Below are positions 9,402-44,051 of a stretch of DNA of 64,000 nt, piece by piece. Location: positions 3,782,001 to 3,846,000 of the forward strand of contig NZ_CP107880.1 of the NCBI RefSeq assembly GCF_036013745.1, written 5' to 3'. The stretch is from Streptomyces sp. NBC_00483 (lineage in GTDB: Bacteria > Actinomycetota > Actinomycetes > Streptomycetales > Streptomycetaceae). The translations under genes and the position numbers were made by a program. A model generated the notes under the pieces. That model saw only the letters and a program-made list of their open reading frames with translations. It did not search any database and had not been told where the DNA came from. Position 1 is the stretch's first letter. Every line of letters begins with the position of its first letter.

Positions 9402-9677
9402 CAACCAATGCCGGGCCTATTCAAAGCCCCATGCCCAGGCACTCTTCCGGCTCCCCTGCTTCGACATCGACCAGGCGATCATCAACCCCACCAGCGGTTC
9501 CCGAGCTAAGGAAACAGAGGCCGGCCAGCTCAGCAGACCCCAGTGGGAAATCGTGGCGGAAGGTCGCGACGTGGTCGGCCACGGATGGCGCTCATCGATC
9601 CATGGTTCCGTTTAGCTTTAGAGCCTGGTTGCGGGCATTCTCGGTAACGAGCCGAGTCGCTAATCAGGGTGGGGGCC

Positions 9678-11948: not shown

Positions 11949-13178
11949 TCAGGCCCGTGCCTCCGCGAGGAGTTTTTGGAGGCGGGTGAGGCCCTCCGTG
12001 AGGTCGGTGTCGCCGAGGGCGTAGGAGAGGCGGAGGTAGCCCGGGGTGCCGAAGGCTTCGCCGGGGACCACTGCCACCTCGGCCTCCTCCAGGATGAGTG
12101 CGGCCAACTCGACCGAGCTCTGGGGGCGCTTGCCGCGGATCTCCTTGCCGAGCACGCCCTTCACCGAAGGGTAGGCGTAGAACGCGCCCTCGGGCATCGG
12201 GCAGACGACGCCGTCGATCTCGTTCAGCATCGGGACGATCAGGTTGCGGCGGCGGTCGAAGGCCTCGCGCATCGTCGCGACGGCGGACAGGTCGCCGGAG
12301 AGGGCGGTGATCGCGGCGGCCTGGGCGACGTTGTTGACGTTCGAGGTGGCATGCGACTGGTGGTTCGTCGCGGCCTTGACGACGTCCTGCGGGGCGATGA
12401 TCCAGCCGACCCGCCAGCCCGTCATCGCGTACGTCTTGGCGAGACCGTTCACCACGATGCACTTGTCCCGCAGTTCGGGGACGAGCACGGGCAGGGAGTG
12501 GAACTCCGCGTCGCCGTACACCAGATGCTCGTAGATCTCGTCGGTCAGCACCCACAGGTCGTGCTCGACCGCCCAGCGGCCGATCGCCTCGACCTCGGCC
12601 GCGCTGTACACGGCGCCGGTCGGGTTCGACGGGGAGACGAAGAGCAGCGCCTTGGTCTTCTCCGTGCGCGCCGCCTCCAGTTGCTCGACGGTGACCTTGT
12701 AGTCCGCCCCCTCGTCGGCGACGACGTCCACGGGGACGCCGCCGGCGAGGCGGACCGACTCCGGGTACGTCGTCCAGTACGGGGCCGGGACGATGACCTC
12801 GTCGCCCGGGTCGAGGATCGCGGCGAAGGCGTTGTAGATGGCCTGCTTGCCGCCGTTGGTGACCAGGACCTGCGACGGGGCCACCTCGTAGCCGGAGTCG
12901 CGGAGCGTCTTGGCGGCGATCGCCTCGCGCAGCCCCGGCAGTCCGGCCGAAGGCGTGTAGCGATGGTTGGCCGTGTCACGGCAGGCCGTCACGGCGGCCT
13001 CGACGATGTAGTCCGGAGTGGGGAAGTCGGGCTCGCCGGCGCCGAAGACGATCACGGGACGTCCGGCGGCCCTGAGCGCCTTGGCCTGGGCGTCCACGGC
13101 GAGGGTGACGGACTCGGAGATGGCGGCGACCCGGGCCGAAATGCGGCTCTGGGACTGGGGAGTTGCGGCTGCGGTCAT
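11949..13178 (-). CDS. aspC: Class I/II pyridoxal-phosphate aminotransferase, aspartate type
   Basis: 409 aa, full length for the AspC subgroup Ib. Key elements: [10 protein letters not shown] near the N-terminus, [15 protein letters not shown], the substrate and cofactor pocket [26 protein letters not shown], and [16 protein letters not shown] with the Schiff-base lysine. It should exchange amino groups between aspartate and 2-oxoglutarate in the cytoplasm. The ATG at 13178 has only a weak ribosome binding site. It is transcribed toward the island's right end and divergently from the biosynthetic operon, so amino-acid supply to that operon is possible but not shown. Confidence 0.92.
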
Positions 13179-13763: not shown

Positions 13764-14114
13764 ATGCAGAGCGACGAGACCGGAACAGACGCCCCGCCGC
13801 CCGCCACGACTTTCTCGCGGCGCCTCAAGGAACACCGCCGCAACGACGAGTGGAAGAAGGCGCCGCGCCGTATCGAGCAGGCCGAGTGCATCGGCTGCGA
13901 CTCGTGCATGCGGGCCTGCCCGCCGCAGTTCAGCGCGATCTACAACCACGGCCTCGACGTCGTGATCATCCCGGAGCTGTGCAACGGCTGCGCCAAGTGC
14001 GTGCAGGCCTGCCCCGTCGACTGCATCTACCCGGACGACAACTGGCAGCCCACCGACCAGTCGATGTGGACGTACGTCGAGGGACAGGAGGAGTTCCGTG
14101 CAGTCGTCAACTGA
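13764..14114 (+). CDS. 2[4Fe-4S] ferredoxin-like protein
   Basis: 116 aa. Two four-cysteine motifs are complete: CIGCDSCMRACP and CNGCAKCVQACP, which should each hold a [4Fe-4S] cluster. Short N-terminal (basic) and C-terminal (Trp/Asp-rich) extensions frame them. It is an electron carrier and presumably serves a redox enzyme of this operon, such as the FAD protein, the membrane desaturase or the coupled large protein. GGAAAGCGGAACG precedes the ATG. Its 3' end overlaps the next gene by 17 nt, with that gene's AGGAGGAG inside it, which argues for a fixed stoichiometry. Confidence 0.9.
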   Translation: MQSDETGTDAPPPATTFSRRLKEHRRNDEWKKAPRRIEQAECIGCDSCMRACPPQFSAIYNHGLDVVIIPELCNGCAKCVQACPVDCIYPDDNWQPTDQSMWTYVEGQEEFRAVVN

Positions 14115-16152
14115 CGTCCTGCCCGCCCCGACGGACGGCCTCGTCGTACGCCCCACGGTCGACGACCTCATCACGCACCCCACGGCGGACGCCCCCGCCG
14201 TCGCCCCGCCCAAGAGTGCCCGGCGGCTCGCCATGGAGGAGGCCCGGCGCAGCAAGCGTCCGAGCCGGGCCGACCGGCAGGCCGGGGCGTCCCCGCACCC
14301 CGAGCGCACCCTCGACGACGCCGGGTTCCCGAGGCTGCTCCAGCAGACCCTCACCGCCGCCCGCGGCGCGGCGAGCACCCGCGAGATGGTCGAGATCCTG
14401 ATCACGCTCGGCGGCCGGCTCGACGCCGACACAGCCCGGCGGTCGCTGACCCGCGCGGAGACAGCGGCCGTGCGGATGCTGACCGCGCCCGGCCGCGCCC
14501 CCGGCGCCGGTGAGCCCGGCGGACCCGAGCGCGCCCGCACCACGAGCGACCCGGATGAAGCCCAAAGAGCGGGCGCCGAGGCCGCGTTCACCTCTACCCT
14601 CGCCCTCTCCCCGCAGGGTCGGCTCGTCGTCACCGTGCCCCAGCGCCGGTCGCTGCCCGCCGAGGTCGCCGCGACCGGGGTCGCCGCCCGGATCACCTGG
14701 AGCCGGGACGATCTCGCCGAGTACGTGCGGCTCTTCGCCGACGTACGACGGCGCACGGAGCACGAAGTCGCCGAGTGCCGAGGCCTGTTGGACAGCCTCG
14801 GGCAGGACGGGCGTACGGCCGCGGTCGACGCACTTCGCGGGGCCGTCTTCCTCGTTCCGCCCGTGATGCTCTACAAGGACGACTCGGTCTTCTCCAACCT
14901 GAAGGACGAGAAGAACCTCACCGGCAAGAGCCTGCTGCCCACCCACCCCGACTGCTTCTTCCACCATCTCGACAGGCTGCCGCTGGAGTTGTGGACGGAC
15001 GACGAGGCGGTGGTCGTCGCGTGCCTGTGGCTGGCGTACTCCTCGGGCGGCCCCAACCGCGTCGAGAGCTTCAACGGCGTGCAGCTGTCCCTGGAGAACG
15101 TCGCCGACAACTTCCGTACGACCAGGGGTGTTTATCTGCAGGCGGCTCCTGAGCTTGTGATCGACGAGCTGGCGGATGCGGGACTCTCGGGTGTCGAACT
15201 TCCCTCCATTGAAAGCCTGTTGGCGTCTGCCGGGCAGATCGCCGACGCGCGGGCCCGGCTCGTGGCCGAGCGGCGCATCCACTACGACATCAACGCCACC
15301 ATCCGCCGCAAGTCGGAGCGGGCACTGCCGCGCGCCGAGCGTCCCGGTCCGCACGAGCTGGGCGTCTGTGAGCGTCTCGGTGAGCTGCTGCCCGGCGCCG
15401 GGCGGGACTTCGCCGGCGTACTCGACGTGCTGGACGACGCCTGGTTGCAGGCGCCGCACGGCGAGTTCGCGACCGGGTTCGAGGCGCTGGTGGAGGCGAC
15501 CGTGCACGCCTCCGTCGACCTGTTCGGCGCGGACTTCGCGATGAGCCGGGGCATCCGCTCGCTGCCGAAGCTGATCGACGCGCTCGGCCGGCGGGACTGG
15601 GCGGAGATCGTCTCCTGGGAGCTGCCCGACTTCTACTGCTGCGTCGTCCCCTCGGCCCGCGCCTTCGAGCTGCACGGCGGCGACCGGCTGAAGGTCGCCG
15701 ACTCGGCGTGGGCCATGTCGGCGCGCATGCAGTACAACACCTGGCACGTGATGCCGGGCAACCTGCCCAAGGACCCGGCCGTGCAGGCCCGCGACTTCCT
15801 CTCCCCGCACGTCCTGCCCGATCTCGCCGTCCACTCCGACCTGCACCACCGCGGGCACGTCGCCAACCTGATCCGTTTCTCGGCGCGCAGCCCCGAACCG
15901 GTGCGCATCACCGACGAGATCACCTTCAAGAGCCTCACCGACCTGCGCGTGCTGCGCTGCACCGGGGAGCCCTTCGACCAGGCGGACCTCATCGGGGTCA
16001 CCCATGTCGCCCGGTTCCTGGCCCAGTTGTCCGAACGGGTCGCCGCGGCCGCCGTCGCCGGGCGTCCGATCGAGGTCACTTCCTTCGACCACCGCTGGCA
16101 CCGCACCTCCATCGCCGGCCCCGTCCCCTCTCTGGAGAGCCATGTCCTCTGA
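14098..16152 (+). CDS. Large unrecognised protein of the ATP-grasp/glutamate mutase cluster
   Basis: 684 aa, GTG start, no signal peptide or membrane helices. Residues 1-200 are Ala/Arg/Pro-rich and partly disordered. The rest is a compact helical domain with conserved-looking blocks: FLVPPVMLYKDDSVFSN, LPTHPDCFFHHLDRLPLELW, SGGPNRVESFNG, YNTWHVMPGNLP, HSDLHHRGHVANL and FDHRWHRTS. The clustered histidines could bind metal. I recognise no family. The overlaps with ferredoxin (17 nt) and the first ATP-grasp gene (11 nt) place it in the core of the pathway. It may be a redox enzyme fed by the ferredoxin or an acyl/peptidyl-transfer enzyme; neither is established. Confidence 0.7.
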   Translation: MQSSTDVLPAPTDGLVVRPTVDDLITHPTADAPAVAPPKSARRLAMEEARRSKRPSRADRQAGASPHPERTLDDAGFPRLLQQTLTAARGAASTREMVEILITLGGRLDADTARRSLTRAETAAVRMLTAPGRAPGAGEPGGPERARTTSDPDEAQRAGAEAAFTSTLALSPQGRLVVTVPQRRSLPAEVAATGVAARITWSRDDLAEYVRLFADVRRRTEHEVAECRGLLDSLGQDGRTAAVDALRGAVFLVPPVMLYKDDSVFSNLKDEKNLTGKSLLPTHPDCFFHHLDRLPLELWTDDEAVVVACLWLAYSSGGPNRVESFNGVQLSLENVADNFRTTRGVYLQAAPELVIDELADAGLSGVELPSIESLLASAGQIADARARLVAERRIHYDINATIRRKSERALPRAERPGPHELGVCERLGELLPGAGRDFAGVLDVLDDAWLQAPHGEFATGFEALVEATVHASVDLFGADFAMSRGIRSLPKLIDALGRRDWAEIVSWELPDFYCCVVPSARAFELHGGDRLKVADSAWAMSARMQYNTWHVMPGNLPKDPAVQARDFLSPHVLPDLAVHSDLHHRGHVANLIRFSARSPEPVRITDEITFKSLTDLRVLRCTGEPFDQADLIGVTHVARFLAQLSERVAAAAVAGRPIEVTSFDHRWHRTSIAGPVPSLESHVL

Positions 16153-17449
16153 GCCGTCATCTGAGCCGTCCTCCGAGTCCGCTGTGCCGCAGCAGGTCCT
16201 CGTCTACGTCAATCTGCGCCGCACCCCGCTGGAGCAGCGCTCCGCCCTGTACGCCGCCCATCGCCTCGGCTACGGCGTCGCGCTGATCGCCGACGCGCCG
16301 CCGGCCGGGCTGCCGACGGAGATCGTCCGTACGGTCCACCAGGTCGACACCTACGACGACGCCGCGGTGGACGCCGCGGTGTCGGCCATCACGGCCGAGT
16401 TCGACGTCGTCGGCGTCGTCACCTGGTCCGACGCGGCCGTGGAGACGGTCAGCCGGATCGCGCAAGGGCTCGGCCTTCCGGCGGCCTCGACGGAGGCGGC
16501 CCGGATCTCCCGCGACAAGTTCCTGATGCGGCAGGCCCTGACCTCCGTACGCCCGGACCTGTCGCCGCGCTTCGCCCGCGTCACCACCTGGGAGGAGACC
16601 GCGAAGGCGGCCGCGGAACTCGGCTTCCCGCTGGTGCTGAAGCCGGCCACGGGCAACGGCAGCAAGGGCATCTACCAGGTGCACGGCGAGGACGAACTCC
16701 GTCCTGCCTTCGAGCAGTTGACGTCCTATGTCCGCCCGGAGATGGACCGCGTCTTCACGGGGCACGCGGGCGAGATCGTCATCGAGCAGTTCCTGGCCGG
16801 CACCGAGCACAGCATCGAGGGCTGGGTCCAGGGCGGGCAGGTGCACATCGCCGGCATCACCGACAAGACGACGACGGAGCCCTACCGTCTGGAGGCCGGA
16901 CACGCCTTCCCGACCTCGCTGCCCGAGGCCTCCGTGGCCGCCGTGCACGAGCTGACGCACGCGGTCGCCGAGGGGTTCGGCATGGACGACTGCGCCTTCC
17001 ATCTGGAGGCGATGGTCGGGCCCGACGGCAAGGCGCGGATGGTGGAGTGCGCGGCCCGGGTGGGCGGCGACTTCATCACCTCGCACCTGGTGGGTCTCGC
17101 GACAGGCGTCCCGTTCTGCGAGAACACCGTGCGCGTCGCGACGGGCCAGGCCCCACGGGCCGCTGAGGGCACTCCTCTCCACTCGGGACTCCGCAAGCTG
17201 CTCGCTCCCGCCGACGGCGTCCTCGCGAGCGTCGAAGGCGTCGACGACGCGTTGCGGGTGCCCGGCGTCGAGCACATCGTCGTCGAGCGGAAGCTGGGCG
17301 CGACGGTCCAACTGCCGCCCGCCGACTACATGTCGAGCACCATCGGCGTCATCATCGCCACCGGCGGTAGCGCCGCGGCCGTGCAGGCCGCCCTGGACGC
17401 CGCCGAGGCCGCGATCACGATCGGGATCTCGGATGCCGACGCCGCCTGA
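16142..17449 (+). CDS. ATP-grasp ligase 1
   Basis: 435 aa. After a Ser/Glu-rich tip comes the pre-ATP-grasp domain (QQVLVYVNLRRTPLEQ...), then the ATP-grasp fold: GFPLVLKPATGNGSKG (ATP-binding lysine and glycine loop), EIVIEQFLAGTEHSIEGW, and the Mg-binding end HLEAMVGPDG...VECAARVGGDF. The organisation matches L-amino-acid ligases of the BacD type and carbamoyl-phosphate-synthase-like ligases, which activate a carboxylate as an acyl phosphate and join it to an amine. Substrates are unknown. The ATG at 16142 overlaps the upstream gene by 11 nt. The three ligases of this operon differ clearly, so they probably act at different bonds. Confidence 0.88.
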   Translation: MSSEPSSEPSSESAVPQQVLVYVNLRRTPLEQRSALYAAHRLGYGVALIADAPPAGLPTEIVRTVHQVDTYDDAAVDAAVSAITAEFDVVGVVTWSDAAVETVSRIAQGLGLPAASTEAARISRDKFLMRQALTSVRPDLSPRFARVTTWEETAKAAAELGFPLVLKPATGNGSKGIYQVHGEDELRPAFEQLTSYVRPEMDRVFTGHAGEIVIEQFLAGTEHSIEGWVQGGQVHIAGITDKTTTEPYRLEAGHAFPTSLPEASVAAVHELTHAVAEGFGMDDCAFHLEAMVGPDGKARMVECAARVGGDFITSHLVGLATGVPFCENTVRVATGQAPRAAEGTPLHSGLRKLLAPADGVLASVEGVDDALRVPGVEHIVVERKLGATVQLPPADYMSSTIGVIIATGGSAAAVQAALDAAEAAITIGISDADAA

Positions 17450-18713
17450 GGGCGCCCGACCGGCGGCGGCCGGGCGGGTCCCGGACGCCGCCCCGACGGT
17501 CCTGGTCGTCGGCTCCACCACCCCCTCCCCGCACGGCCAGGACCAGCTGACCCGCCTTGCGGCCCAGGCCCGGTCCCGCGGGCTCCGGCTGATCGGCGCG
17601 GACACGGCGCGGGCGCTGGGGTCCGGGGTGTGGCGGATGCCCGCCGACACGCACCTGCCGCTGGAGTACGCGGACCCGGGGGCCTGCCGGGAGTTCGCCG
17701 CGGCGCATCCCGGCATCGACGCCGTGGTCACCGTCAAGGAGGGCTGCGTACTCGCCGTCGCCCACCTCACGCGGGCGCTGGGCGTGGCGGGCAACGACCC
17801 GGAGGCGGTGCGGACGGTCCGTACGAAGGACCTGTGCAGGGCGGTGCTGCGGGAGGCCGGTTTCGCGCAGCCCGGGTTCGCCGTCGCGGCTGGCCAGACG
17901 GAGGCCGCGGACTTCCTCGCCGCCACCGAAGGCCCGTGGATCGTCAAGCCGCGGGACGGCATGGGCAGCGCGGGCGTCTCGCTCGTACGGGACCGCTCCA
18001 GGCTCGGCCGGGCCATCGCGGGCCTCGAACCGCCGTTCCTGGTCGAGGAGTTCGTGCAGGGCGCGGAGTTCTCCGCCGAGGGCGTCATGGTCGGCGGCAA
18101 GCCGTGGGTCCTCGCCCTGACCGCCAAGCGCACCGGCGCCGGCTTCGTCGAGACCGGCCACCGCACCCCCGCCCCGCTGGACGCGGCCACGGCCGCCGCC
18201 GCACGGGACGCGGTGGCCTCGGCGGTGACCGCGGCCGGGCTCACCCACGGGGTGCTGCACGCGGAGTTCTGGGTCACGCCCGCCGGTGCGATCGTGCTGG
18301 GCGAGATCCACGCCCGGCCGGGCGGCGACTTCATCCACGCCCTCGTGGAGGAGACCCGGCCCGGCTTCGAGCTCTACGGCACCCTCCTGGACGACCTGCT
18401 GGGCCGCCCGGTCGCCGAACCGCCCGTCGCCCAAGGCGCCGCGGGCTCCGACTTCCTGGTGCTCGGCCCCGGCCGGATCGCGTCGGTGACCGGCTGGGAT
18501 GCGGTCGCCGCGGACCCGGCGCTCGTCGCCGCCCACCTCTTCATCGGCGCGGGCGATGTCCTGACCGAGGTCGCCGACTCCGCGGGACGGCACGGCGTGC
18601 TCGTCGCCACGGGTCCCGACCTCGCGGCGGTCGACGCGACACTCGCCGCGGCGAGGGCCCGGATCGACGTACGCCTCGACGGGTGCGCGCCCCTGCCGGG
18701 AGGCACCCCGTGA
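17433..18713 (+). CDS. ATP-grasp ligase 2
   Basis: 426 aa. The N-terminal domain begins around TVLVVGSTTPSPHGQ. The ATP-grasp core shows GPWIVKPRDGMGSAGVSLV, FLVEEFVQGAEFSAEG and, at the metal site, HAEFWVTPAG...GEIHARPGGDF. It is in the same fold class as ligase 1 but distinct in sequence. It probably forms an amide bond in a peptide-like product at the cost of ATP. The start overlaps ligase 1 by 17 nt, and its TGA overlaps the GTG of the exporter gene. No ribosome binding site stands out, so translation is likely coupled. Confidence 0.88.
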   Translation: MPTPPEGARPAAAGRVPDAAPTVLVVGSTTPSPHGQDQLTRLAAQARSRGLRLIGADTARALGSGVWRMPADTHLPLEYADPGACREFAAAHPGIDAVVTVKEGCVLAVAHLTRALGVAGNDPEAVRTVRTKDLCRAVLREAGFAQPGFAVAAGQTEAADFLAATEGPWIVKPRDGMGSAGVSLVRDRSRLGRAIAGLEPPFLVEEFVQGAEFSAEGVMVGGKPWVLALTAKRTGAGFVETGHRTPAPLDAATAAAARDAVASAVTAAGLTHGVLHAEFWVTPAGAIVLGEIHARPGGDFIHALVEETRPGFELYGTLLDDLLGRPVAEPPVAQGAAGSDFLVLGPGRIASVTGWDAVAADPALVAAHLFIGAGDVLTEVADSAGRHGVLVATGPDLAAVDATLAAARARIDVRLDGCAPLPGGTP

Positions 18714-19945
18714 CCGTCGCCGCGCCGAAGCCGTCCGTCGCCCGCGGGCCGGTTCGGCGGGTTCTCGCCACCATCACCCTCGACTATCTCCTCTCCCACC
18801 TCGGCTACTTCACCCTGCTCCCGGTCCTCCCCCTCCTCGTCCCGCGCCTCGACCCGGGCGCCGGGGCGTGGTGGGTCGGTACCGCGCTGCTGTCGCTGAC
18901 CGTCGCCGTCCGGGCCGGTTCGCTGACCTGTGGCGGGCTGTTGCAGCGGACGCCGGTGCGGGCGGCCATGGTCGGCGGGCTGCTGCTCGCGGCCGCCGCC
19001 TTCGCCGTGCTGCCGTTGGCGCCGGGGATGTGGGCGGTGGTGCTGTGTCTGGTGGTCGCCGGGTTCGGGATCAGCGTCAACGCGCTCACCGCACGGGCCT
19101 ACGTGGCCGTGACGCTGGACGCCGCCGCCGACCGCTCCACCGTCTTCTCGGCGATCCAGGTCGCCGTGAACATCTCCGCCGCGCTCGGCCCCGTCATCGC
19201 CAACCTGCTGTTCGGCGGCGCCCGTTACGGCCTGCTGCTCGTCCTGGTCGGCGCCCTGTACGCGGCCGCGGCGGCGACCGTCGCGGTCACCGTTCCGCGC
19301 GGCCTCAGGCTGTCCGACGGCGACACCCGGCCCCCGCTGAAGCTGGGGCTGCTGAAGGTCGTCGTCACCGATCCAGCGGTGCGCCGCGTGTCCCTGCTGG
19401 CCGCCGCCGGAAGCCTGCTGTACGCGCAGTTCTTCTCGGCCCTGGCCCTCGGCATCGCCGAACTCAGCGACAACACGGCGGTACGCGCCGGGTACTTCAC
19501 GCTCAACGCCGTCCTGGTCGTCGCCCTTCAGATCCCGGTCACGGTGTGGATGAACCGCGACCTTGCGCGCGGGGTGTCGCCGATGCGTCATCTGCGGCTG
19601 GGCACCGCGGTGTTCGCCCTGTCCTTCGTCCTGCTCGGCGTGGACAGCGACGGCCTGGTCACCGCGTTCGGGGCACTGGTGGTGTTCACGCTCGCCGAGA
19701 CGGTGTTCTCGCCGACCGTCTCCACCGCCTTCGCCGGGCTCGACGGCGACCGGCCGGTCGTCGAGGTGTTCAACCTGCGCCAGGTCGCCACCGCCACCGG
19801 CGAGTCCGCAGGCTCGTTCGCGGGCGGCTCGCTGTTCCTGCTGGCGGGCGCGCACGGCCTGACCTCCGGTTACTGGTTCACGCTCGCCGCCATCGGCCTG
19901 CTGGCAGCCGCCGCCGTCCGTACCGTCCCGAAGGGAGCCCACTGA
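18710..19945 (+). CDS. MFS transporter, probable product exporter
   Basis: About 411 aa with roughly 12 hydrophobic segments, beginning ITLDYLLSHLGYFTLLPVLP. The region LLQRTPVRAAMVGGLLLAA resembles the loop 2-3 signature of the major facilitator superfamily. It should use the proton gradient to move a small molecule across the membrane. Its place between ATP-grasp genes 2 and 3, with GTGA overlap upstream and a 1-nt gap downstream, makes export of (and self-protection from) the cluster product the natural role. Import of a precursor cannot be excluded. Confidence 0.88.
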   Translation: MTVAAPKPSVARGPVRRVLATITLDYLLSHLGYFTLLPVLPLLVPRLDPGAGAWWVGTALLSLTVAVRAGSLTCGGLLQRTPVRAAMVGGLLLAAAAFAVLPLAPGMWAVVLCLVVAGFGISVNALTARAYVAVTLDAAADRSTVFSAIQVAVNISAALGPVIANLLFGGARYGLLLVLVGALYAAAAATVAVTVPRGLRLSDGDTRPPLKLGLLKVVVTDPAVRRVSLLAAAGSLLYAQFFSALALGIAELSDNTAVRAGYFTLNAVLVVALQIPVTVWMNRDLARGVSPMRHLRLGTAVFALSFVLLGVDSDGLVTAFGALVVFTLAETVFSPTVSTAFAGLDGDRPVVEVFNLRQVATATGESAGSFAGGSLFLLAGAHGLTSGYWFTLAAIGLLAAAAVRTVPKGAH

Positions 19946-19946
19946 C

Positions 19947-21185
19947 ATGCGTCTGATGCTCATCGGCTACAACGACGGCGTCCTGGCCGCCCTCGACGAC
20001 AGCCGCCCCGCCGGCAGTGTCGTCCTCGTCGAGGAGGCCGACCTGTGGGAAGCGAAGGGGCTCGCCGCCCGCGCTGCCGCCCACCCCTGCCTCGGCGAGG
20101 TCCGCTTCGGCCGCTATCAGCAGGACGAGCAATTCCTGGATGTCGTACGGGACTTCGGCCCTGTGGATGCGGTGGTGGCCGGGCTGGAGTACGCCGTCGT
20201 GGCCGCCGCCCGCGCCGCGGAGGAGCTCGGGCTTCCCGGCCCCGGCGCCAAGGCCGCCGCCGTACTGCGCGACAAGCTGCTGCTGCGCGAGACGATGCGG
20301 GCGGCCGGGCTGCCCACCCCGGCGTTCCGCGAGGTCGGCTCCGCCGAGGACATCGCCGCGTTCGCGGCCGGCGGCCCCTGTGTCGTCAAGCCCGCGGGGC
20401 GGCAGGCCAGCCTCGGCGTACTGCTGCTCGACGCAGGGGCCGACCCCGGGGCGGCCTGGCGCCACTGCACCGGCGCCGACGAGGGACGCCAGCTCGCCAA
20501 GCGGCCCATGACCTGGCGCTATCTCGCCGAGGAGCGGCTGTACGGGCCGGAGTTCTCCACCGAGGGCCTGGTCGACGAGGGCCGGGTCGTCTTCTGCAAC
20601 GCCACCCGCAAGTACACCCTCGAAGGACCGAGCCCGGTCGAGACGGGACACACCGTCCACGCCCAGGACCCGTCCTGGACAAGGGAGTTGCAGGCGTTCG
20701 TCGACGCCATCGGATACGGCAGCGGCATCCTGCACGCCGAGTGGGTGCGCACCGCCGACGGGCCCCGCCTGATCGAGTGCGCCGGACGTCCGCCGGGCGA
20801 CCGGATCATGGACCTGATCGACCTGGCGTACGACGTCGATCTCCACGGCCGCTGGATCGCCACGCTCCTCGGCGAGGACACCGGGCCCGCGCCGACTCCC
20901 GTACGGGCGGCGGCGATCCGCTTCCTGACCGCCCCGCGCCCCGGCACGATCACCGGCATCGACGGCGCCGACGCCGTGCGCGCCCGGCCGGGGGTCGTCC
21001 GCGTCGACCTCACCCGCAAGCCGGGCGACACCGTCACCGACGTGCGCTCCTCCTGGGACCGGCTCGGCTCCGTGATCACCACGGGCGTCGACGCCCCGGC
21101 CGCCGAGCGCGCCGCACGGGAGGCGGCGGACCTCATCACCGTATCCCTGAACACCGCTCCGGAGACCAACTCCCATGACAGGTGA
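19947..21185 (+). CDS. ATP-grasp ligase 3
   Basis: 412 aa. The start MRLMLIGYNDGVLAALDDS is a Rossmann-like pre-ATP-grasp domain. The core shows GPCVVKPAGRQASLGVLLL, YLAEERLYGPEFSTEGLV and the metal site HAEWVRTADGPRLIECAGRPPGDR. Compared with ligases 1 and 2 the glycine-rich loop is altered (GRQASLG), which may reflect a different acyl substrate. An ATP-dependent carboxylate-amine ligase is the expected activity. The ATG at 19947 follows the exporter stop by 1 nt, and the end overlaps the FAD-binding gene by 11 nt. Confidence 0.88.
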   Translation: MRLMLIGYNDGVLAALDDSRPAGSVVLVEEADLWEAKGLAARAAAHPCLGEVRFGRYQQDEQFLDVVRDFGPVDAVVAGLEYAVVAAARAAEELGLPGPGAKAAAVLRDKLLLRETMRAAGLPTPAFREVGSAEDIAAFAAGGPCVVKPAGRQASLGVLLLDAGADPGAAWRHCTGADEGRQLAKRPMTWRYLAEERLYGPEFSTEGLVDEGRVVFCNATRKYTLEGPSPVETGHTVHAQDPSWTRELQAFVDAIGYGSGILHAEWVRTADGPRLIECAGRPPGDRIMDLIDLAYDVDLHGRWIATLLGEDTGPAPTPVRAAAIRFLTAPRPGTITGIDGADAVRARPGVVRVDLTRKPGDTVTDVRSSWDRLGSVITTGVDAPAAERAAREAADLITVSLNTAPETNSHDR

Positions 21186-23163
21186 GCGCCTTGAGATCTG
21201 CGTCGTCGGCGCGGGGCCGCGCGGCCTCTCCGTGCTGGAGCGGCTGTGCGCCAACGCGCGCGACCGCCGCCCCGCCGGACCGATCGTGGTCCATGTCGTC
21301 GACCCGGACCGGCCGGGCGCCGGGCGGGTGTGGCGCACGGACCAGTCCCGGCATCTGCTGATGAACACCGTGGCCTCGCGGGTCACCGTGTTCACCGACG
21401 CCGGCACGCCCGTCGAAGGACCCGAGGAGCCGGGGCCGAGCCTGTACGAATGGGCCCGCTTCCGCACGGTCATGGGCCCCTTCGACGACACGCAGGACGA
21501 CATGGAAAGCGGGGCGGAGGGCTGGTCCGACGCGGACTGGGCGAACGCGGACGGGGCTGTCTCAGACGGTGCGGACGGTGTCGCCCTCGCCGAGATGCGT
21601 GATCTCGGCCCCGACAGCTACCCCTCGCGCGCCCTGTACGGCCGCTACCTGGAGTGGGCCTTCGGCCGCGTGGTGCGCCGGGCCCCCGAGCGGCTGACGG
21701 TGCGGGTGCACAGGTCGCGGGCCGTCGCCGTCGACGACGCGGCCGAACCGCCGTACCAGGAAGTCCTGTTGGACGACGGCACGCTGCTCGACCGGCTGGA
21801 CGCGGTGGTGCTCAGCCAGGGCCACGTGCCCGCCCGGCTGTCCCGCGCCGAGGAGGAACTCGCCCTCGGCGCCATCGACCACGGCCTGGTCTACGTACCA
21901 CCCGCCAACCCCGCCGACCTCGCCCTCGACCGGCTCGTCGCCCCCGGCGAACCGGTGCTGCTGCGCGGCCTCGGGCTCAACTTCTTCGACCACATGGCCC
22001 TGTTCACCGAGGGCCGCGGCGGCACCTACGAGCGCACCGCCGACGGTCTGGTCTACCGGCCCTCCGGACGGGAGCCGCTGATCTGCGCGGGCTCGCGGCG
22101 CGGGGTGCCCCACCGGGCGCACGGCAGGAACGAGAAGGGCGCGCACGGCCACCATGTGCCCCGGCTGCTGACGCCGGAGCGCATCGAGCGGCTGCGCGGC
22201 GGCGATCGGCTCGACTTCCGCACCGACCTGTGGCCGCTGATCGCCAAGGAGGTCGAGACCGTCTACTACGAGACGCTGCTGGCGGGCCGGGTGCACCGCG
22301 CCGAGGCCGGGGCCTTCGCGGCCCGTTTCGCCACGGCGCCGCGCGGCGACGAGGACCGGCTGCTGACGGAGGCGGGCGTCCGGGACGCAGAGCGCTGGAA
22401 CTGGGACCTGGTCCACCGCCCTTACAGCGAACGGGACTTCAGCTCCCACGCGGACTTCACGCACTGGCTGGTCGGCCATCTGCGGGCCGACGCGCGCGCC
22501 GCGCGGCTCGGCAATGTCAGCGGCCCGCTGAAGTCGGCCCTCGACGTCCTGCGCGACCTGCGCGACACGATCCGGCTCGCGGTGGACCATGGTGGCCTCG
22601 ACGGCCGCTCGCACCGCGACGACCTCGACCGGTGGTACACGCCGCTCAGCGCGTTCCTGTCCGACGGGCCCTCCGCACACCGGGTCGAGCAGCTGACGGC
22701 GCTGATCGAGGCGGGCGTGCTGCGGGTCGCGGGCCCGGGCACCCGGGTGACGGCGACCCCGGAGGGCTTCGCTCTGGAGTCCGACGTCCCCGGCGTCCGG
22801 CTCACGGGCCGCGTCCTGTTCGAGGCCCGGCTGCCCGCACCCGACCTGCGCCGCACCGCCGATCCGCTGCTGCGGCACCTGCTGTCGGCCGGCCACTGCC
22901 GCCCGTTCCGGGTGCGGTCCGCCGACGGCACCTCGTACGAGACCGGCGGCCTCGACGTCACCGACCGCCCGCACCACGTCGTCGACGCCACCGGCCGCCC
23001 GCACCCCCGCCGCTTCGCCCACGGCGTCCCCACCGAGTCCGTGCACTGGGCCACCGCGACGGGCGTCGGCCCCGGCGTGGACTCGGTGACGCTGCGCGAC
23101 GGCGACGCGCTGGCCAGGGCCGTGCTCGATGCCGCGCCCGGCTTCGCGGGAGCGCCCGCATGA
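21175..23163 (+). CDS. FAD/NAD(P)-binding protein (PF13454 type)
   Basis: 662 aa. The N-terminal dinucleotide fold is ICVVGAGPRGLSVLERL (GxGPxG), followed by DPDRPGAGRVWRTDQS and HLLMNTVASRVTVF, typical of the FAD/NAD(P)-binding family PF13454. The C-terminal third contains HYGVP-like HPRRFAHGVPTESVHWAT and ends near GFAGAPA. Family members are mostly uncharacterised but occur in many Streptomyces gene clusters and in relatives of N-hydroxylating enzymes. In this operon it is a candidate tailoring oxidoreductase, perhaps with the ferredoxin. It overlaps ligase 3 by 11 nt and is followed by the desaturase gene with an ATGA-type overlap. Confidence 0.82.
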   Translation: MTGERLEICVVGAGPRGLSVLERLCANARDRRPAGPIVVHVVDPDRPGAGRVWRTDQSRHLLMNTVASRVTVFTDAGTPVEGPEEPGPSLYEWARFRTVMGPFDDTQDDMESGAEGWSDADWANADGAVSDGADGVALAEMRDLGPDSYPSRALYGRYLEWAFGRVVRRAPERLTVRVHRSRAVAVDDAAEPPYQEVLLDDGTLLDRLDAVVLSQGHVPARLSRAEEELALGAIDHGLVYVPPANPADLALDRLVAPGEPVLLRGLGLNFFDHMALFTEGRGGTYERTADGLVYRPSGREPLICAGSRRGVPHRAHGRNEKGAHGHHVPRLLTPERIERLRGGDRLDFRTDLWPLIAKEVETVYYETLLAGRVHRAEAGAFAARFATAPRGDEDRLLTEAGVRDAERWNWDLVHRPYSERDFSSHADFTHWLVGHLRADARAARLGNVSGPLKSALDVLRDLRDTIRLAVDHGGLDGRSHRDDLDRWYTPLSAFLSDGPSAHRVEQLTALIEAGVLRVAGPGTRVTATPEGFALESDVPGVRLTGRVLFEARLPAPDLRRTADPLLRHLLSAGHCRPFRVRSADGTSYETGGLDVTDRPHHVVDATGRPHPRRFAHGVPTESVHWATATGVGPGVDSVTLRDGDALARAVLDAAPGFAGAPA

Positions 23164-23219
23164 CCTCGACCACCGCGACGGCCGAACCGCTCGACCCGAC
23201 GCCCCAGGAGGAGTCCCCG

Positions 23220-24512
23220 ATGACCGTCGTGTCCGACCTCACCGCCCCTGACCACGCAGCCGGATCCGGCACACCCGCACCGGGAACCGGCACGCCGGCC
23301 CCCGGACCCGCGGCGCCCACCCCTGATCCCGTGGCGCCCGCCCCCGATCCCGTACGCGAGTCCATGGGGCGCGTGCCCCGCGTCCTCCAGTACCCGCTGA
23401 CGCTCCTCACCGGCAGACCCCTGGCAGGACAGGCACCGCTGAGCTGGTGGACGCCCGCCTTCCATCTCTTCGCGGCGCTCGTCTCGATGCTCGCCGGGGT
23501 AGCCGTCTCGGTCACCGGCTGGGCGCTGGCGGGGAGTTGGCTGTTCCTGCTGCTGCCGGGCTGGGCGATGACGCTGCACGGCATGCGCAACCTGCGCATG
23601 ATGGTCTACCACCAGTGTTCGCACCGGAACATGTTCCGCCGCAGAAAGCTGGACACGGCGATCGGCCGAGCGACGTCGAGCCTGCTGATCGTGCAGCACT
23701 TCGCCCGCTACAGCGAGGAACACGTCGGCGACCACCACGCGGCGCACCACATGACGCTGCGCGACCCCACCGTGCAGGCCTTCCTGATCAGCCTCGACCT
23801 GCACCCGGGCATGACCCGTCGGCAGATGTGGCGGCGCACCCTCGGCAAGCTGCTCTCGCCGGTCTTCCACGCCACGTTCGCCGTGGCCAGGGCCCGCTCC
23901 TTCTGGCACGGCTCCTCGCGCGCCGAGCGGCTCACGGCGGCCGTGCTGTACGGCGGTTCGGCCGTCGCCTGTCTGCTCACGGGCACGTGGGCGGCGCTGC
24001 TCGTCGTCTGGTTCGTGCCGCTCGTGCCGCTGTTCCAGCTCAGCAACACCCTGCGCCTGTGCGTCAAGCACACCTTTCCGCACCCGGAGCAGACCGAGCG
24101 GCGCGGCAAGGCGTACTTCGGCTCCCTCACCAACGCCATCTTCATCGGCGAGGCGGCCCCCGCCCCCGGAGCCGCGCCGCTGCGGGCCACCGTCGCCTGG
24201 CTGCGCTGGACCGCCCGCATGCTCTTCGTGCACCTGCCGAGCCGCTACCTGGTCCTGACCGGCGACACCGTCGTCCACGACTTCCACCACCGCCGCCCGG
24301 CGGCCCGCGAGTGGGCCGACTACCTCTTCGCCCGCCAGGCCGACGCCGACCGGGGCAGCGCCGGCTGGCCGCCCTACCACCACGCCTGGGGCCTGGTGCC
24401 GGCGATCAACCTGGTCTTCGACTCGCTGTCCGCGGCCGACCCCGCGGAGTTCGACGTACGACGGATACGGGACGTCAGCAGGCGGGAGCTGTTCGCCGCC
24501 TTCGACGACTGA
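23220..24512 (+). CDS. Membrane fatty-acid desaturase/hydroxylase family protein
   Basis: About 430 aa. A low-complexity Pro/Ala/Thr-rich N-terminus of about 45 residues precedes hydrophobic helices and three histidine boxes: HQCSHRNMF, HVGDHHAAHH and HDFHHRRP. These bind the di-iron centre of membrane desaturases, hydroxylases and ketolases. It should use O2 and electrons, for which the cluster ferredoxin is a good source. I chose ATG 23220 because AGGAGGAG lies about 7 nt upstream; ATG 23160 overlaps the previous stop (ATGA) and would add 20 residues. The substrate is unknown: a lipid, or an amino-acid side chain of the product. Confidence 0.82.
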   Translation: MTVVSDLTAPDHAAGSGTPAPGTGTPAPGPAAPTPDPVAPAPDPVRESMGRVPRVLQYPLTLLTGRPLAGQAPLSWWTPAFHLFAALVSMLAGVAVSVTGWALAGSWLFLLLPGWAMTLHGMRNLRMMVYHQCSHRNMFRRRKLDTAIGRATSSLLIVQHFARYSEEHVGDHHAAHHMTLRDPTVQAFLISLDLHPGMTRRQMWRRTLGKLLSPVFHATFAVARARSFWHGSSRAERLTAAVLYGGSAVACLLTGTWAALLVVWFVPLVPLFQLSNTLRLCVKHTFPHPEQTERRGKAYFGSLTNAIFIGEAAPAPGAAPLRATVAWLRWTARMLFVHLPSRYLVLTGDTVVHDFHHRRPAAREWADYLFARQADADRGSAGWPPYHHAWGLVPAINLVFDSLSAADPAEFDVRRIRDVSRRELFAAFDD

Positions 24513-24556
24513 CCTTCCCCGTCCGAGAGCCGCCCAGATCCGACCGGAGCCGCCCC

Positions 24557-25012
24557 ATGCACAGACGCACCGTGATCCTCGGCGTCGCCGCGAGCGACAG
24601 CCATGCCGTGGCCAACCAGCTCATCGCGCACACCCTGCGCGCCCGTGGATTCCAGGTGATCAACCTGGGCACCTGCACGACCGTCGACGAGTTCGCCGCC
24701 GCCCACCGCGTGCACCCCGACGCCGAGGCCGTCCTGATCGGCAGCCTCAACGGCCATGCGTACGAGGATCTGTTGGACCTCCCCGAGGCGCGCGCCCGGG
24801 GCCTGCTCGACTGTCCGGTCCTGGTGGGCGGCAACCTCTCCGTGGGCAGCCGCAAACAGTCCGCCGACATCGAGCGGCTCTACGCCATCGGGGTCCACCG
24901 CGTACTGAACGACGCGTCCGAACTGCCCGCCGCACTCGACGAATTGGCGGCCCCGACGCCGGCCCCGGCCGCGACTCCGGCTCCCGCCCCGACACCGGCG
25001 GGTGCCTCGTGA
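24557..25012 (+). CDS. Glutamate (methylaspartate) mutase, small cobalamin-binding subunit
   Basis: 151 aa. It starts [24 protein letters not shown], closely like the S subunit of coenzyme-B12 glutamate mutase (SDCHAVGN). Asp14 and His16 of the D-x-H-x-x-G cobalamin motif are present (His16 is the axial ligand), but the Gly is Ala19. IGSLNG and VGGNLSVG match the remaining cofactor contacts. With the next gene it should convert L-glutamate to (2S,3S)-3-methylaspartate. A Pro/Ala/Thr-rich tail ends the protein. A 44-nt gap with GGAGCCG before the ATG separates it from the desaturase gene, and the 3' end overlaps the large subunit. Confidence 0.92.
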
Positions 25013-26352
25013 CGACCGCCACCGAACTCCCGACGCTCCACGAATCCGTCGCGTACGTCGGCGCGTTGGGGAAGGCCACCGTCGCCGACGTGCTGCGGGA
25101 GGCCAGGGCCGCCGGCCGCCTGGCCCTCCAGCCGCGCTGCGGGGTCGGCTCGCACCCCCAGATGTCCACGCTGCTCAAGGACATCGAGCGGCACGCCGCC
25201 CCCGACGTCCTGTCGCTCACCATCGACGCGCACACCCGCCTCGGCCGCTTCGACCACGCCCGGTCGGTCCTCGACCGCAACCCGGCCGACCTGAACGGCT
25301 ATCCGCTGGTCTCGCACGGCTGGCGGCGCGGCCGCGAGCTCAACGAGGCGGTCCGCGCGCCCCTGGAGGTCCGGCACGGCTCCCCCGACGCCCGGACGCT
25401 GTTCCGCACGGCCGTCGCCGCCGGCATCACGTCCTTCGAGGGCGGCGGCATCTCGTACAACCTGCCGTACTCCAAGGACGTGCCGCTCGAACGGTCCCTG
25501 GCCGCGTGGCGCGAGGTCGACGCGGCCTGCGGCGAGCTGGCCGAGCTCGGCCTCGTCGTGGACCGTGAGCTGTTCGGCACGCTCACGGCCGTCCTGATGC
25601 CGCCCTCGGTCAGTCTCGCCGTCAGCGTCCTGGAGGCGGTCGCCGCCGCCCGCGAGGGGGTGCGCTGCATCTCGGTCGCCTACCCGCAGGGCGGGCACGC
25701 CGAGCAGGACGTGGCGGCGCTGCGGGCCATCCCGCTGCTCGCCGCCCGCCATCTGCCGGCCGGCGTCGAGGTCCACGCGGTGCTGCACGAGTTCATGGGC
25801 GTCTACCCGCGCGAGCGCGCGCACGCCGAGGACCTCATCCTCTACGGCGCGCTCGTCGCCCGGTACGGCGGCGCGACCAAGCTGATCACCAAGACGTACC
25901 AGGAGGCGTACGGCATCCCCGACACCCGCGCCATCGTCGACGGTCTGCACCTCGCCGCCCGCGCCAACTCGCCGCTGCTCGCGGGGTGGCGGCTCGACGA
26001 GGCGAGGATCGCCGAGGAACTGGCGTGGCTGCTCGCCGAGGTCGACGCGCTGGTGGCGCCGGTGCTCGACAGCCGCCTCGGCCTCCACGAGGCCATCGCC
26101 GCCGCCTTCGCCGACGGCACCCTGGACATCCCGTTCAGCGCCAGCCGGCATGCCCGCTCGGCGGTGATCCCGGGCCGTGCGCGGGACGGCGCGATCCGCA
26201 TCCTGTCCACGGGCGCGCTGCCCCTGCCACGGCACCTGCGGGACCGGAACACCGACGCGCTGCGGACCCGGCCCACGGACCTGTACGAGGCCCTCACCAG
26301 GGACATCGACCATTTCCCGCGGCTGTTCGGGGAGCCGAACCACCGCCTGTGA
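25009..26352 (+). CDS. Glutamate (methylaspartate) mutase, large catalytic subunit
   Basis: 447 aa, of the length of NikV/SanV-type enzymes and slightly shorter than clostridial MutE. The TIM-barrel protein shows [49 protein letters not shown] and [20 protein letters not shown]. The last two match the conserved substrate-binding loops of the E subunit: Arg residues for the glutamate carboxylates and the [11 protein letters not shown] block. It overlaps the S subunit by 4 nt (GTGA). In nikkomycin and friulimicin clusters the same pair supplies a branched amino-acid unit, so here it probably makes a building block for the ATP-grasp ligases. Confidence 0.93.
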
Positions 26353-26355
26353 GGG

Positions 26356-27378
26356 TCACTTGGCGGGTTCGGCCAGCAGCCCGTGCTTGTGGATGAGATA
26401 GCCGGCCTGGAAGCGGCTGCGGGCGCCGAGCCCGTCGAGGATGCGGGAGACCCGGCGCTGGCAGGTGCGTAACGAGACACCCAGCCTGCGGGCGATGGCG
26501 GCATCGTCCATGCCGCTGGCCAGCAGCCTCAGCAGCGCCTTGTCGACGTCCTCCGACAGCACTTCCATGCGCTCGCGCGAGGTGTCGACCTCGAACGGAT
26601 CGGCGTTGAACCACACATGCTCGAAGGCCTGCACGGCGAAGTTCACGACGCTGGGTTCCTCGATGAGCACCGCGCCCAGGTTGTTGCCCGCGTGGGAGAT
26701 CACCGCGACCCGGCGGTCGAACACGATCAGCCGCATGAACTCGGCCGACGCGGTGCGCACTTCGCCGCCCTTGTGGGTGATCCGCTCGACGTAGGCGGCC
26801 GTCGGCAGACTGAAGCGGGCGCTGTGCTGGTAGAGCGTGCGCATCCGTACGCCCCGGCCCAGCATCGCCTCGTCCCGCTCGATCGCCTCCTCGAGGACCT
26901 CGGTGCGGCGGCCTCCGCCGGGCTGCGCGGTGAGGACCTCCTCCTGGCAGTTGGCGGCGCGCTCGGCCAACACGTTGCGCACGTCCTGGAGTTCCGTGAG
27001 CACCTGCACGCCCTTGGCGCGCTGCCGCCAGGCCAGGCTGTTGTGGTAGACGGGGGCCAGGCTCTCCAGGTCGCGGCGGGCGTGCGCGATCAGCTCGGTC
27101 TGCTTGCGCAGCTCCGTCTCCAGCGGCAGCAGGGTCAGCAGCGCCGCGGACTCCGGGCCGACCGGCGCATAGCGGTGGCAGTCGGGATCCTCCTGGTGCA
27201 GCAGGCCGAGGCCCAGCAGCCGCGCCAGTGATTCGGTCACATCGCTGTCGGTGATGCCCAGTTCCGCGGCCAGCGCCGGCACGTCGAAGGGGGTGCCGTC
27301 GAGCACCCGCTCGTATACGAGTCCGTCACCCGGTTGAAGTCTCAGATCGGTCAGGCTGTCCCACACCAAGCGGCCCAT
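26356..27378 (-). CDS. LuxR-type transcriptional regulator of the cluster
   Basis: About 340 aa. The N-terminal part (LDGTPFDVPALAAELGITDSDVTESLARLLGLGLL) reads as a winged helix like those of TrmB-type regulators. A sensor-like middle domain follows. The C-terminal LuxR helix-turn-helix is LLRLLASGMDDAAIARRLGVSLRTCQRRVSRIL. The stop lies 3 nt from the mutase stop on the other strand, so the gene closes the biosynthetic cluster and is a likely pathway-specific regulator. ATG at 27378 was chosen for GGGAGC just upstream. A ligand cannot be predicted. Confidence 0.85.
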   Translation of the reverse strand: MGRLVWDSLTDLRLQPGDGLVYERVLDGTPFDVPALAAELGITDSDVTESLARLLGLGLLHQEDPDCHRYAPVGPESAALLTLLPLETELRKQTELIAHARRDLESLAPVYHNSLAWRQRAKGVQVLTELQDVRNVLAERAANCQEEVLTAQPGGGRRTEVLEEAIERDEAMLGRGVRMRTLYQHSARFSLPTAAYVERITHKGGEVRTASAEFMRLIVFDRRVAVISHAGNNLGAVLIEEPSVVNFAVQAFEHVWFNADPFEVDTSRERMEVLSEDVDKALLRLLASGMDDAAIARRLGVSLRTCQRRVSRILDGLGARSRFQAGYLIHKHGLLAEPAK

Positions 27379-27640
27379 GGTGCTCCCACGTTCCCGTTCC
27401 CACAATGTAAAGAACCAGAGAACAGCCCCGTTGCCGTAACCCGGCCGGAACGTTAACAGAGCTTTCGAGCGGCCGACCAGTAGGTGCTCACAGGGTGGAA
27501 CGGCCCCCTTGATCGCTTGCCGGCCCCTTCTTTCGTCACCGTTCGGCAACAGCCATGAACCGCCTGGCCAGGTGCCCCGTAGACCCCGGTGTGCGCGGAT
27601 CTAGGACCGCGGGCGAATCGAGACGAGAGAAGGAACCGAG

Positions 27641-28377: not shown

Positions 28378-29100
28378 ATGACGGAACCGGGTACGGAACC
28401 GGGAACGGAGCGGCCGGAGACGGCCGCGCCCGCGGAGTACAGCCTGAGGTTCCCCGACTCGTGGTGGCACCTCGACCTCGACCCGAACACCCGGGACGCG
28501 TCGATCCGCCGCCGTATCGAGGCACAGGTGGAGAAGGCCCCGCAGCTGACCCGCGAGCAGGTGGACGGGCTGATCCGCAGCACGCGGCGCATCGCCCGCG
28601 AGGCGCACGCGAAGGGCGCGCTGCGGGCGTCGGGCATGCTCAGGATTCTGCGCGCGGGCAGCGGCCCGCTGGTGCTCAGCGCCACCACGGTGGTGCTGCG
28701 GATCTCCGTCCCCGAGGAGGAGGCGGAGGACCTGGCGGACCTCGTCATGGCCGCGGGCGTCCAGCTCGGCACCGACGCGGAAGGCAGCGGACTGCCGCCC
28801 GGCGAGGTGGAGTTCGTGGAGCTGCCGCACGTCGGGGCGGCCGGGCGGATCTCCCGTATCGAGGACATCGACTACAACGGGACGCGGGTGCCCACCGCGG
28901 TGCGGCACACCCTGGTCCAGGTGCCGAACAGCCACGACTATCTGGTGCTCGCCAGCTCCACCCCCAACGTGGATCTGGCGGAACAGTTCTACGAGGTCTT
29001 CGACGCGATCGCGGAGTCGCTCCGTTTCGGTGACCCGTCCGATACGGCCGCGGAAGCCGCCGACGCAAGCCCCATGGGCGCAACAGAACAGGGAAAGTGA
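28378..29100 (+). CDS. Putative Rhs adaptor/chaperone (DcrB-like), type VII locus
   Basis: 240 aa from the ATG at 28378, which has GGAAGGG about 9 nt upstream; GTG 28330 (GTGA overlap) is an alternative. After a Glu/Thr/Pro tip comes AEYSLRFPDSWWHLDL, a helical insert, and a C-terminal half with VRHTLVQVPNSHDYLVLASS and AEQFYEVFDAIAESLRFG. The start and end resemble the PsbP/DcrB fold, which includes the Eag chaperones that load Rhs toxins into type VI systems. It sits 10 nt before the first Rhs gene, so I propose a matching role here. I cannot confirm the fold from sequence alone. Confidence 0.55.
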   Translation: MTEPGTEPGTERPETAAPAEYSLRFPDSWWHLDLDPNTRDASIRRRIEAQVEKAPQLTREQVDGLIRSTRRIAREAHAKGALRASGMLRILRAGSGPLVLSATTVVLRISVPEEEAEDLADLVMAAGVQLGTDAEGSGLPPGEVEFVELPHVGAAGRISRIEDIDYNGTRVPTAVRHTLVQVPNSHDYLVLASSTPNVDLAEQFYEVFDAIAESLRFGDPSDTAAEAADASPMGATEQGK

Positions 29101-29110
29101 GGTCGCGGCC

Positions 29111-33812: not shown

Positions 33813-33862
33813 AGCCGTTGCCGGTCTGCCCGGAACCGGCCAAAAGAAAGTGGGAAATGGCC

Positions 33863-43910: not shown

Positions 43911-43982
43911 GAAAACGTCCTCCAGCCAGGGTGAATGGGGGCGTGGGCAGCCGCGGTCGACGGCTCCCGTACCACTGACGTG

Positions 43983-44051
43983 ACTACGGGGCCGGTCGGC
44001 GGACGGTTCACGGAACTTTCCTGTGAACCATCCGCAGGCCGGCCCCGTAGT
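43983..44051. promoter_or_regulatory. Long inverted repeat in the divergent eccC/membrane-protein promoter region
   Basis: The outer arms ACTACGGGGCCGG (43983-43995) and CCGGCCCCGTAGT (44039-44051) are perfect. Inner arms GCGGA-c-GGTTCAC and GTGAACC-a-TCCGC pair with one mismatch. The whole forms a hairpin of about 26 bp, midway between two divergent starts. Confidence 0.7.

Follow-up and report, generated by a model that had tools for sequence, protein, structure and literature searches.

A Streptomyces operon with a KinJ-type heme enzyme, a glutamate mutase and three ATP-grasp ligases, predicted to make a hydrazine-containing peptide

Heme enzymes of the KinJ/FzmP/NegJ family act together with a ferredoxin to combine nitrite with an amino acid into a hydrazine. 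In a 2025 preprint (PMC12154649), Kenney et al. connect five named pathways with the family (those of kinamycin, lomaiviticin, fluostatin, fosfazinomycin and negamycin), most of the clusters that carry it being cryptic. According to the same paper, many cryptic KinJ clusters contain ATP-grasp genes and major facilitator superfamily (MFS) exporters, and the negamycin cluster is itself an ATP-grasp peptide cluster. Here we describe an operon related to these systems in Streptomyces sp. NBC_00483, found in a window of 64,000 nucleotides (C1:3782001-3846000) of a 10.24-Mb genome that forms one contig. The operon (13764-26352) comprises ten genes on the + strand, recognised by frame, third-position GC or family match, which encode a ferredoxin (fdx), a 684-amino-acid protein (g2), three ligases with ATP-grasp and LAL_C2 domains (ag1, ag2 and ag3), an MFS exporter (mfs), a flavin adenine dinucleotide (FAD) enzyme of family PF13454 (nox), a desaturase-type enzyme (des) and the S and E subunits of a glutamate mutase (mutS and mutE).

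We consider it probable that this cluster builds and exports a small peptide carrying a hydrazine (N-N) group. Gene identities, conservation, residues and a deletion scar were read from the sequence; every reaction, the order of the steps and the product are what we predict from them. The g2 protein, with its heme, and fdx would take an acidic amino acid, either L-aspartate or one closely analogous to it, and join nitrite to its amino group, yielding an alpha-hydrazino acid. The glutamate mutase would convert L-glutamate to 3-methylaspartate, and des would most likely hydroxylate 3-methylaspartate (or glutamate). The three ATP-grasp enzymes, which are of the L-amino-acid ligase (LAL) type, would couple these units with one another and with ordinary amino acids, up to four units in all, and mfs would export the product. 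Our best reading of that product is a hydrazino-acid peptide in which (hydroxylated) 3-methylaspartate is a second building block, or the same one.

The cluster class is already known, and the present cluster is an uncharacterised variant of it. It resembles the KinI/KinJ, Lom30/Lom29, FlsU2, FzmP and NegJ systems (PMC12154649) in its heme-family residues, partner ferredoxin and GAF-like domain. However, no amidase, glutamine-synthetase-like or GNAT cassette gene was recognised in the window cluster, which instead carries a glutamate mutase, a GntB-like hydroxylase and three LAL-type ligases. The main text of Kenney et al. is free of the terms mutase, methylasp and desaturase, and the main texts of PMC13061610 and PMC11705231 are both free of ATP-grasp and mutase terms. 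Our literature searches, whose reach MIBiG lies outside, found no published cluster of the same make-up, in line with the initial annotation of this stretch, a reading of the letters alone that knew of no cluster with this combination.

A predicted hydrazine-forming pair

The core of the operon is g2, a gene that was given no role in the initial annotation and that matches no family in Pfam or NCBIfam. It has 25 relatives among 7990 scored candidates and is 36-42% identical to relatives in kin/lom/fls-type hydrazino cassette loci, including those of Micromonospora rosaria DSM 803 and Salinispora pacifica CNR114, a kinship judged against these cassette-locus relatives rather than against the KinJ, FzmP and NegJ sequences themselves. 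All nine KinJ residues compared are present in g2 (the proposed heme ligand His541 together with K356, C468, R497, M498, N501, H504, R551 and R570), as they are, at an offset of +1, in the Salinispora pacifica protein. The arginines proposed for acidic-substrate binding are kept and are invariant in an alignment of 25, and the C-terminal domain has the GAF-like fold of the KinJ/FzmP/NegJ family. Moreover, fdx overlaps g2, and a relative of fdx precedes the relative of g2 in 65 of 67 related loci. We predict from these features that g2 and fdx form a KinIJ-type hydrazine-forming pair.

A mutase and a set of ligases would also be expected if the operon made a 3-methylaspartate peptide without any N-N chemistry, fdx and g2 serving otherwise. 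We find this very improbable, given the partner ferredoxin and the nitrosuccinate enzymes encoded in the related cluster of Streptomyces sp. F001, and we reject it because g2 matches the KinJ residues. The small 3-methylaspartate peptide originally proposed as the product survives in part; a ligase-made peptide with a mutase-derived unit fits the gene content, and what was missed is the N-N chemistry that would define the compound.

Other g2 loci (numbered L) have features of their own. L004 and L045 contain fdx, an aminotransferase gene (amt), and TsaC/YrdC-like and GcvT-like genes, and are other possible hydrazine clusters; L004 additionally carries a WelO5-family gene and an aldehyde dehydrogenase gene, and L045 a gene for a B12-binding radical S-adenosylmethionine protein. 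Six Nocardia loci (L016, L023, L024, L031, L039 and L057) contain fdx, g2 and a lyase gene and have neighbours common among the six, with no amidase or glutamine-synthetase-like match within the stretch covered, which for three of them ends early on one side.

The operon, its ligases and its mutase

All ten frames of the operon are open. With the favoured starts, the first four junctions overlap by 17, 11, 17 and 4 bases, and these are followed by a gap of 1 base (mfs-ag3), an overlap of 11, gaps of 56 (nox-des) and 44 (des-mutS) and an overlap of 4. The genes overlap or abut at seven of nine junctions in all (six overlaps of 4-17 bases and one 1-base gap). We took 23220 as the start of des because bases 23160-23219 are the remains of a lyase gene; the alternative start at 23160 would raise the count to eight of nine.

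The full gene set occurs in identical order (by tblastn) in NBC_01016, the nearest named relative, whose cluster genes are 95-100% identical in the best tblastn segments, in F001, where one extra gene (for a lyase) lies between nox and des, and in genome G170. In Nocardiopsis kunsanensis, relatives of fdx and g2 are found together with one-to-one orthologues of the three ligases, the ligases being reordered. The genes flanking the operon, amt and reg (Table 1), are both kept in F001 and G170, so that the conserved unit is larger than ten genes; amt is kept in L002, L003, L004, L045, L099 and L100 (L003 and L099 are one record, that of F001, and L010 and L147 (G707) were treated as one genome). 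These comparisons uphold the ten-gene operon from ferredoxin to mutase that had been proposed, as well as the co-conservation of its genes, which had been suggested as a check and which is seen in NBC_01016, F001 and G170. The mutase pair, ferredoxin, two oxidative enzymes and exporter are likewise supported by family matches. No nonribosomal peptide synthetase (NRPS) or polyketide synthase (PKS) was found among the part of the window's frames scanned with Pfam, again as first stated.

Table 1. Features of the cluster and its flanks, in window coordinates
Feature	Position	Strand	Evidence
amt, class I aminotransferase (aspartate-aminotransferase/GntC-like), divergent from operon	11949..13178	-	PF00155 1.4e-76
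fdx, two-cluster [4Fe-4S]-type ferredoxin, KinI-like partner	13764..14114	+	PF13237 5e-13
g2, KinJ/FzmP/NegJ-family heme enzyme, predicted hydrazine synthase, 684 aa	14098..16152	+	nine KinJ residues; no Pfam/NCBIfam match
ag1, ATP-grasp ligase with LAL_C2	16142..17449	+	PF13535/PF18603
ag2, ATP-grasp ligase with LAL_C2	17433..18713	+	PF13535/PF18603
mfs, major facilitator exporter (predicted)	18710..19945	+	PF07690 7e-15, match inside this part of frame
ag3, ATP-grasp ligase with LAL_C2	19947..21185	+	PF18603 6e-27, PF13535 1e-8
nox, FAD/NADPH enzyme, L-aspartate N-hydroxylase relative, altered aspartate site	21175..23163	+	8cp2 E 3e-194
nitrosuccinate lyase gene deletion scar, remains of both ends	23160..23219	+	blastn pieces vs F001 lyase
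des, membrane di-iron hydroxylase/desaturase type, GntB-like	23220..24512	+	PF00487 3e-8
mutS, glutamate mutase B12-binding subunit	24557..25012	+	PF02310 1e-10
mutE, glutamate mutase catalytic subunit	25009..26352	+	PF06368 1.5e-108; 6h9e E 1.2e-70
reg, helix-turn-helix (HTH) regulator, conserved neighbour	26356..27549	-	weak HTH matches; 82% in L099, 75% in L100

The three ligases are distinct, as had been claimed, being 30-34% identical to each other, and each has its own orthologue adjoining fdx and g2 in Nocardiopsis kunsanensis (52, 49 and 52% identical for ag1, ag2 and ag3, respectively). Each of them exceeds the Pfam thresholds of PF18603 and PF13535. They share the ATP-grasp and LAL C-terminal domains of BL00235 (3vot) and BacD, the nearest solved relatives of ag1, but the window operon has three such ligases together, and ag1 reaches 62.5 bits with the BacD equivalog model, far below its cut-off of 850. 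At E <= 1e-40, ag1 occurs in three of 394 genomes of the class, its own included, and one of these is Nocardiopsis. In S. griseochromogenes, S. parvus and NPDC052496, the contigs that carry relatives of ag1 and of g2 are equal in length, which hints indirectly at linkage.

Relative to NBC_01016, ag1 has one amino-acid and seven synonymous changes, g2 has seven and 19, and mutE has one and four in the part of the gene compared. Unlike its neighbours, ag2 has 14 amino-acid and 13 synonymous differences, several of them at residues 188-195, and this divergence could reflect either recombination or a changing specificity.

The window mutase has in common with GlmS/GlmE its two subunits and the GlmE active-site residues R66, R100, R149, E171, Y177, Y181, K326 and E330, whose roles we take to be those usually assigned to them and which are identical in mutE at eight of eight positions. 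Modules for 3-methylaspartate are known from the nikkomycin and friulimicin clusters, and they have also been described in macrolactam clusters. The present case differs from such modules in that the scanned frames contain neither NRPS nor PKS and in that mutE belongs to a distinct subfamily with a GntB-like companion. Although some mutE match is present in 142 of 392 genomes of the genus, the close subfamily is confined to 20 places besides the window, in 19 genomes (59-93% identical), the other matches listed being at most 42% identical. The des gene adjoins mutS-mutE at 16 of these 20 places, compared with none of ten distant mutE loci examined, and therefore goes with this mutase subfamily; g2 adjoins at two of the 20.

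At 14 of the close places (L101-L103, L105-L109, L111-L113 and L116-L118), des-mutS-mutE stands without hydrazine genes, its neighbours there encoding zinc alcohol dehydrogenase, pyridoxal-phosphate decarboxylase, acyl-CoA dehydrogenase and PKS; at L102, L106, L108 and L109 it lies near a relative of nox (43-45% identical). The histidine boxes of des are invariant across 19 aligned sequences. In the NCBIfam models for guanitoxin biosynthesis, des resembles GntB (NF041365, 46.8 bits, cut-off 380) and amt resembles GntC (316 bits, cut-off 415), neither reaching the curated threshold, and the best NCBIfam match of amt, aspartate transaminase (385 bits, cut-off 617), falls short as well; arginine chemistry is not implied for the window cluster. 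The mutE gene of F001 has one in-frame TGA.

The nitrite supply

Ancestrally, nitrite would have been supplied by nox, converting aspartate to nitrosuccinate, and by a lyase releasing fumarate and nitrite from it. The enzyme of structure 8cp2 is an L-aspartate N-hydroxylase that forms nitrosuccinate (Rotilio et al. 2023, PMC10404684); nox shares 59% identity with it over 586 aligned residues and keeps the catalytic Asn62. Both oxidative enzymes of the initial annotation are thus present, and one of them can be specified as a relative of aspartate N-hydroxylases, with a lyase behind it in F001. That lyase scores 751.6 bits with the nitrosuccinate lyase model NF052556 (cut-off 650), and nox and the lyase, side by side as counterparts of CreE/FzmM and CreD, would constitute a full nitrite generator in F001. 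In the stretches covered, nox is present in 12 of 67 g2 loci and the lyase in 11 of these, the twelfth being NBC_01016.

The window departs from the CreDE arrangement in two respects. First, the window and NBC_01016 have about 60 bases at the place of the lyase gene, which align to both ends of the F001 gene (blastn pieces of 94%, 87% and 95% identity). The lyase gene is deleted in both strains, and the dedicated nitrite source is thereby broken; a search of the window with a nox-paired lyase from another locus gave no hit at E <= 0.01. Second, of the five residues named around the bound aspartate in 8cp2 (R13, R276, N413, R416 and R577; PMC10404684), nox keeps R13 and R416 and has the replacements R276H, N413D and R577G, as well as R266H of the same arginine site (8cp2 numbering). 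The canonical residues stand at these positions in P0027-P0030, which apart from the NBC_01016 twin are the closest nox proteins, and in all 115 of P0031-P0145 (114 of 115 for R276). At the 114 positions invariant in 115 relatives, nox has changed nine times, and P0027-P0030 not once each. Three of the changes fall among eight invariant aspartate/arginine-site positions and six among the 106 others (Fisher p 0.016), which is no clean test, as the site list was drawn up after the changes had been seen and omits three named family-variable positions.

It is conceivable that the cluster is decaying and silent in the window strain, with its lyase gone and nox losing its site, and G170 would fit such a course; it too is without a lyase at that place, and its nox is internally deleted, the missing stretch including the arginine cluster, with H at R266 and R276 and also at N62. 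In addition, the ratio of nonsynonymous to synonymous substitution rates (dN/dS) relative to F001 is highest for nox (0.41) and ag2 (0.40), the other genes giving 0.14-0.34. However, the ten open frames and the few amino-acid changes that separate g2, ag1, mutE and even nox from their NBC_01016 counterparts make decay improbable. For nox the differences are seven nonsynonymous and 15 synonymous (Fisher p 8e-5 on site numbers, mutation bias lying outside the test), and because of this ratio we regard nox as not simply drifting and the idea of a simple pseudogene as unsupported. Either nox is idle in the window strain or it acts on another substrate. The F001 nox has ten changes in a run at 615-630, resembling a local frame slip, and P0027 of KR55 has none.

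With their lyase gene deleted and a changed aspartate site in nox, the window strain and NBC_01016 probably obtain nitrite from elsewhere than the cluster. A generator in cis within the window was rejected, as the window contains neither a lyase match nor any Lyase_1 gene of the genome. A second nox-type gene with a canonical aspartate site is present in the same genome (C1:3422835-3424676, L128), with none of the genome's six Lyase_1 genes nearby. The best of these six is 57% identical to a nox-paired lyase, but we rejected it as a nitrosuccinate lyase, since its neighbours are protocatechuate-pathway genes and the cut-off it passes is that of PcaB, not the nitrosuccinate lyase one (the NCBIfam check covered this best gene of the six). 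NarG is present in the genome and is a possible nitrite source.

Building blocks of the predicted peptide and their significance

Several observations, besides the broken nitrite source and the raised dN/dS of nox and ag2, weigh against our prediction as a whole or against parts of it. Foldseek gave no match for g2 at E 0.001 or better. In a tree that left out L001, L002, L024, L064 and L068, g2 falls in a clade of 19, separate from 69 rows that include the kin/lom-type sequences, and may therefore act on a different substrate; the Nocardiopsis row of this tree, a straight reading of L010 4183-6036, is odd in composition and sits on a very long branch, and no use was made of its position. L-Aspartate was the sole active substrate of KinJ among the amino acids assayed, a panel that included DL-3-hydroxyaspartate, and the substrate of NegJ is glycine (PMC12154649). 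The mutase subunits fall below the curated cut-offs, at 316.3 bits for mutE (TIGR01503, cut-off 390.1) and 79.7 and 95.6 bits for mutS (TIGR01501, cut-off 135.8, and NF002612, cut-off 110). In DxHxxG, the cobalamin-binding motif of the S subunit, D and H are invariant in 22 aligned sequences and the glycine is replaced by alanine in 22 of 22. Furthermore, the 16-kb stretch covered in Nocardiopsis contains fdx, g2 and three ligases and lacks a mutase, des and nox, indicating that the core can do without the mutase. In G535, the third genome with ag1 (37% identical), g2 is absent from the 20 kb fetched around that gene. We infer that the hydrazine synthase and the three ligases are the older core, the mutase, des and the nitrite pair having been added later or lost.

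Within the hydrazino-peptide reading, two ways of employing the mutase have to be weighed. It may well be, although we say so tentatively, that the cluster consists of two modules, with g2 and fdx making hydrazinosuccinate from L-aspartate, the mutase and des making a hydroxylated 3-methylaspartate that is never N-aminated, and the ligases joining both. The 14 places with des-mutS-mutE and no g2, the Nocardiopsis set, the acceptance of L-aspartate alone by KinJ (PMC12154649) and the arginines kept in g2 all agree with this arrangement. It accords less well with the separate clade of g2 and its nearest kin, which leaves room for another substrate, and with L004, where des overlaps g2 (g2 end 11839, des frame start 11832) and ties des to the hydrazine step; amt is nearby at that locus, and no mutase match was found in the stretch covered.

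The other branch, which we hold to be possible but doubtful, has the mutase feeding the heme enzyme, so that 3-methylaspartate or its hydroxylated form would be N-aminated to a branched hydrazinosuccinate. That 3-methylaspartate is a close analogue of aspartate, that both enzymes share one operon in each of the three other full clusters that could be read (NBC_01016, F001 and G170), and that the acidic-substrate arginines are invariant argue for this route, whereas the rejection of 3-hydroxyaspartate by KinJ (PMC12154649) and the several relatives with g2 but without a mutase in the stretches seen argue against it. A still more specific proposal, and in our opinion an unlikely one, is that the B12 mutase supplies 3-methylaspartate to the KinIJ-type complex, that the resulting branched alpha-hydrazino diacid is built into a hydrazino-peptide by the three ligases, and that the nitrite generator was excised while nox, far from dead, was re-specialised to a new substrate. 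We found no branched alpha-hydrazino diacid in the literature searched.

Other genes in the window also merit mention. Beside the cluster, 29030-33586, 33818-38353 and 39510-44066 encode two large RHS-repeat proteins and an FtsK/SpoIIIE-type ATPase, the first RHS-repeat protein having a C-terminal HNH-type nuclease toxin domain, and this stretch resembles a region of polymorphic toxins and type VII secretion. A single frame at 56578-59322 combines X-Pro dipeptidyl-peptidase (S15) and ATP-binding cassette (ABC) transporter ATPase domains. The gene at 9669-10712, with EVE and NO VEIN C-terminal domains, may serve in defence or modification.

The study of enzymatic N-N bond formation is still young, and the presence of a KinJ-type pair alongside a glutamate mutase and a compact group of ligases points to a product with an unusual building block that can be searched for directly. 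The des-mutS-mutE trio, of which we met no description in the literature, is a recurring amino-acid module that can be traced in other clusters. Finally, F001, the window strain and G170 together can be treated as a natural experiment that asks if a dedicated nitrite source is required by KinJ enzymes.

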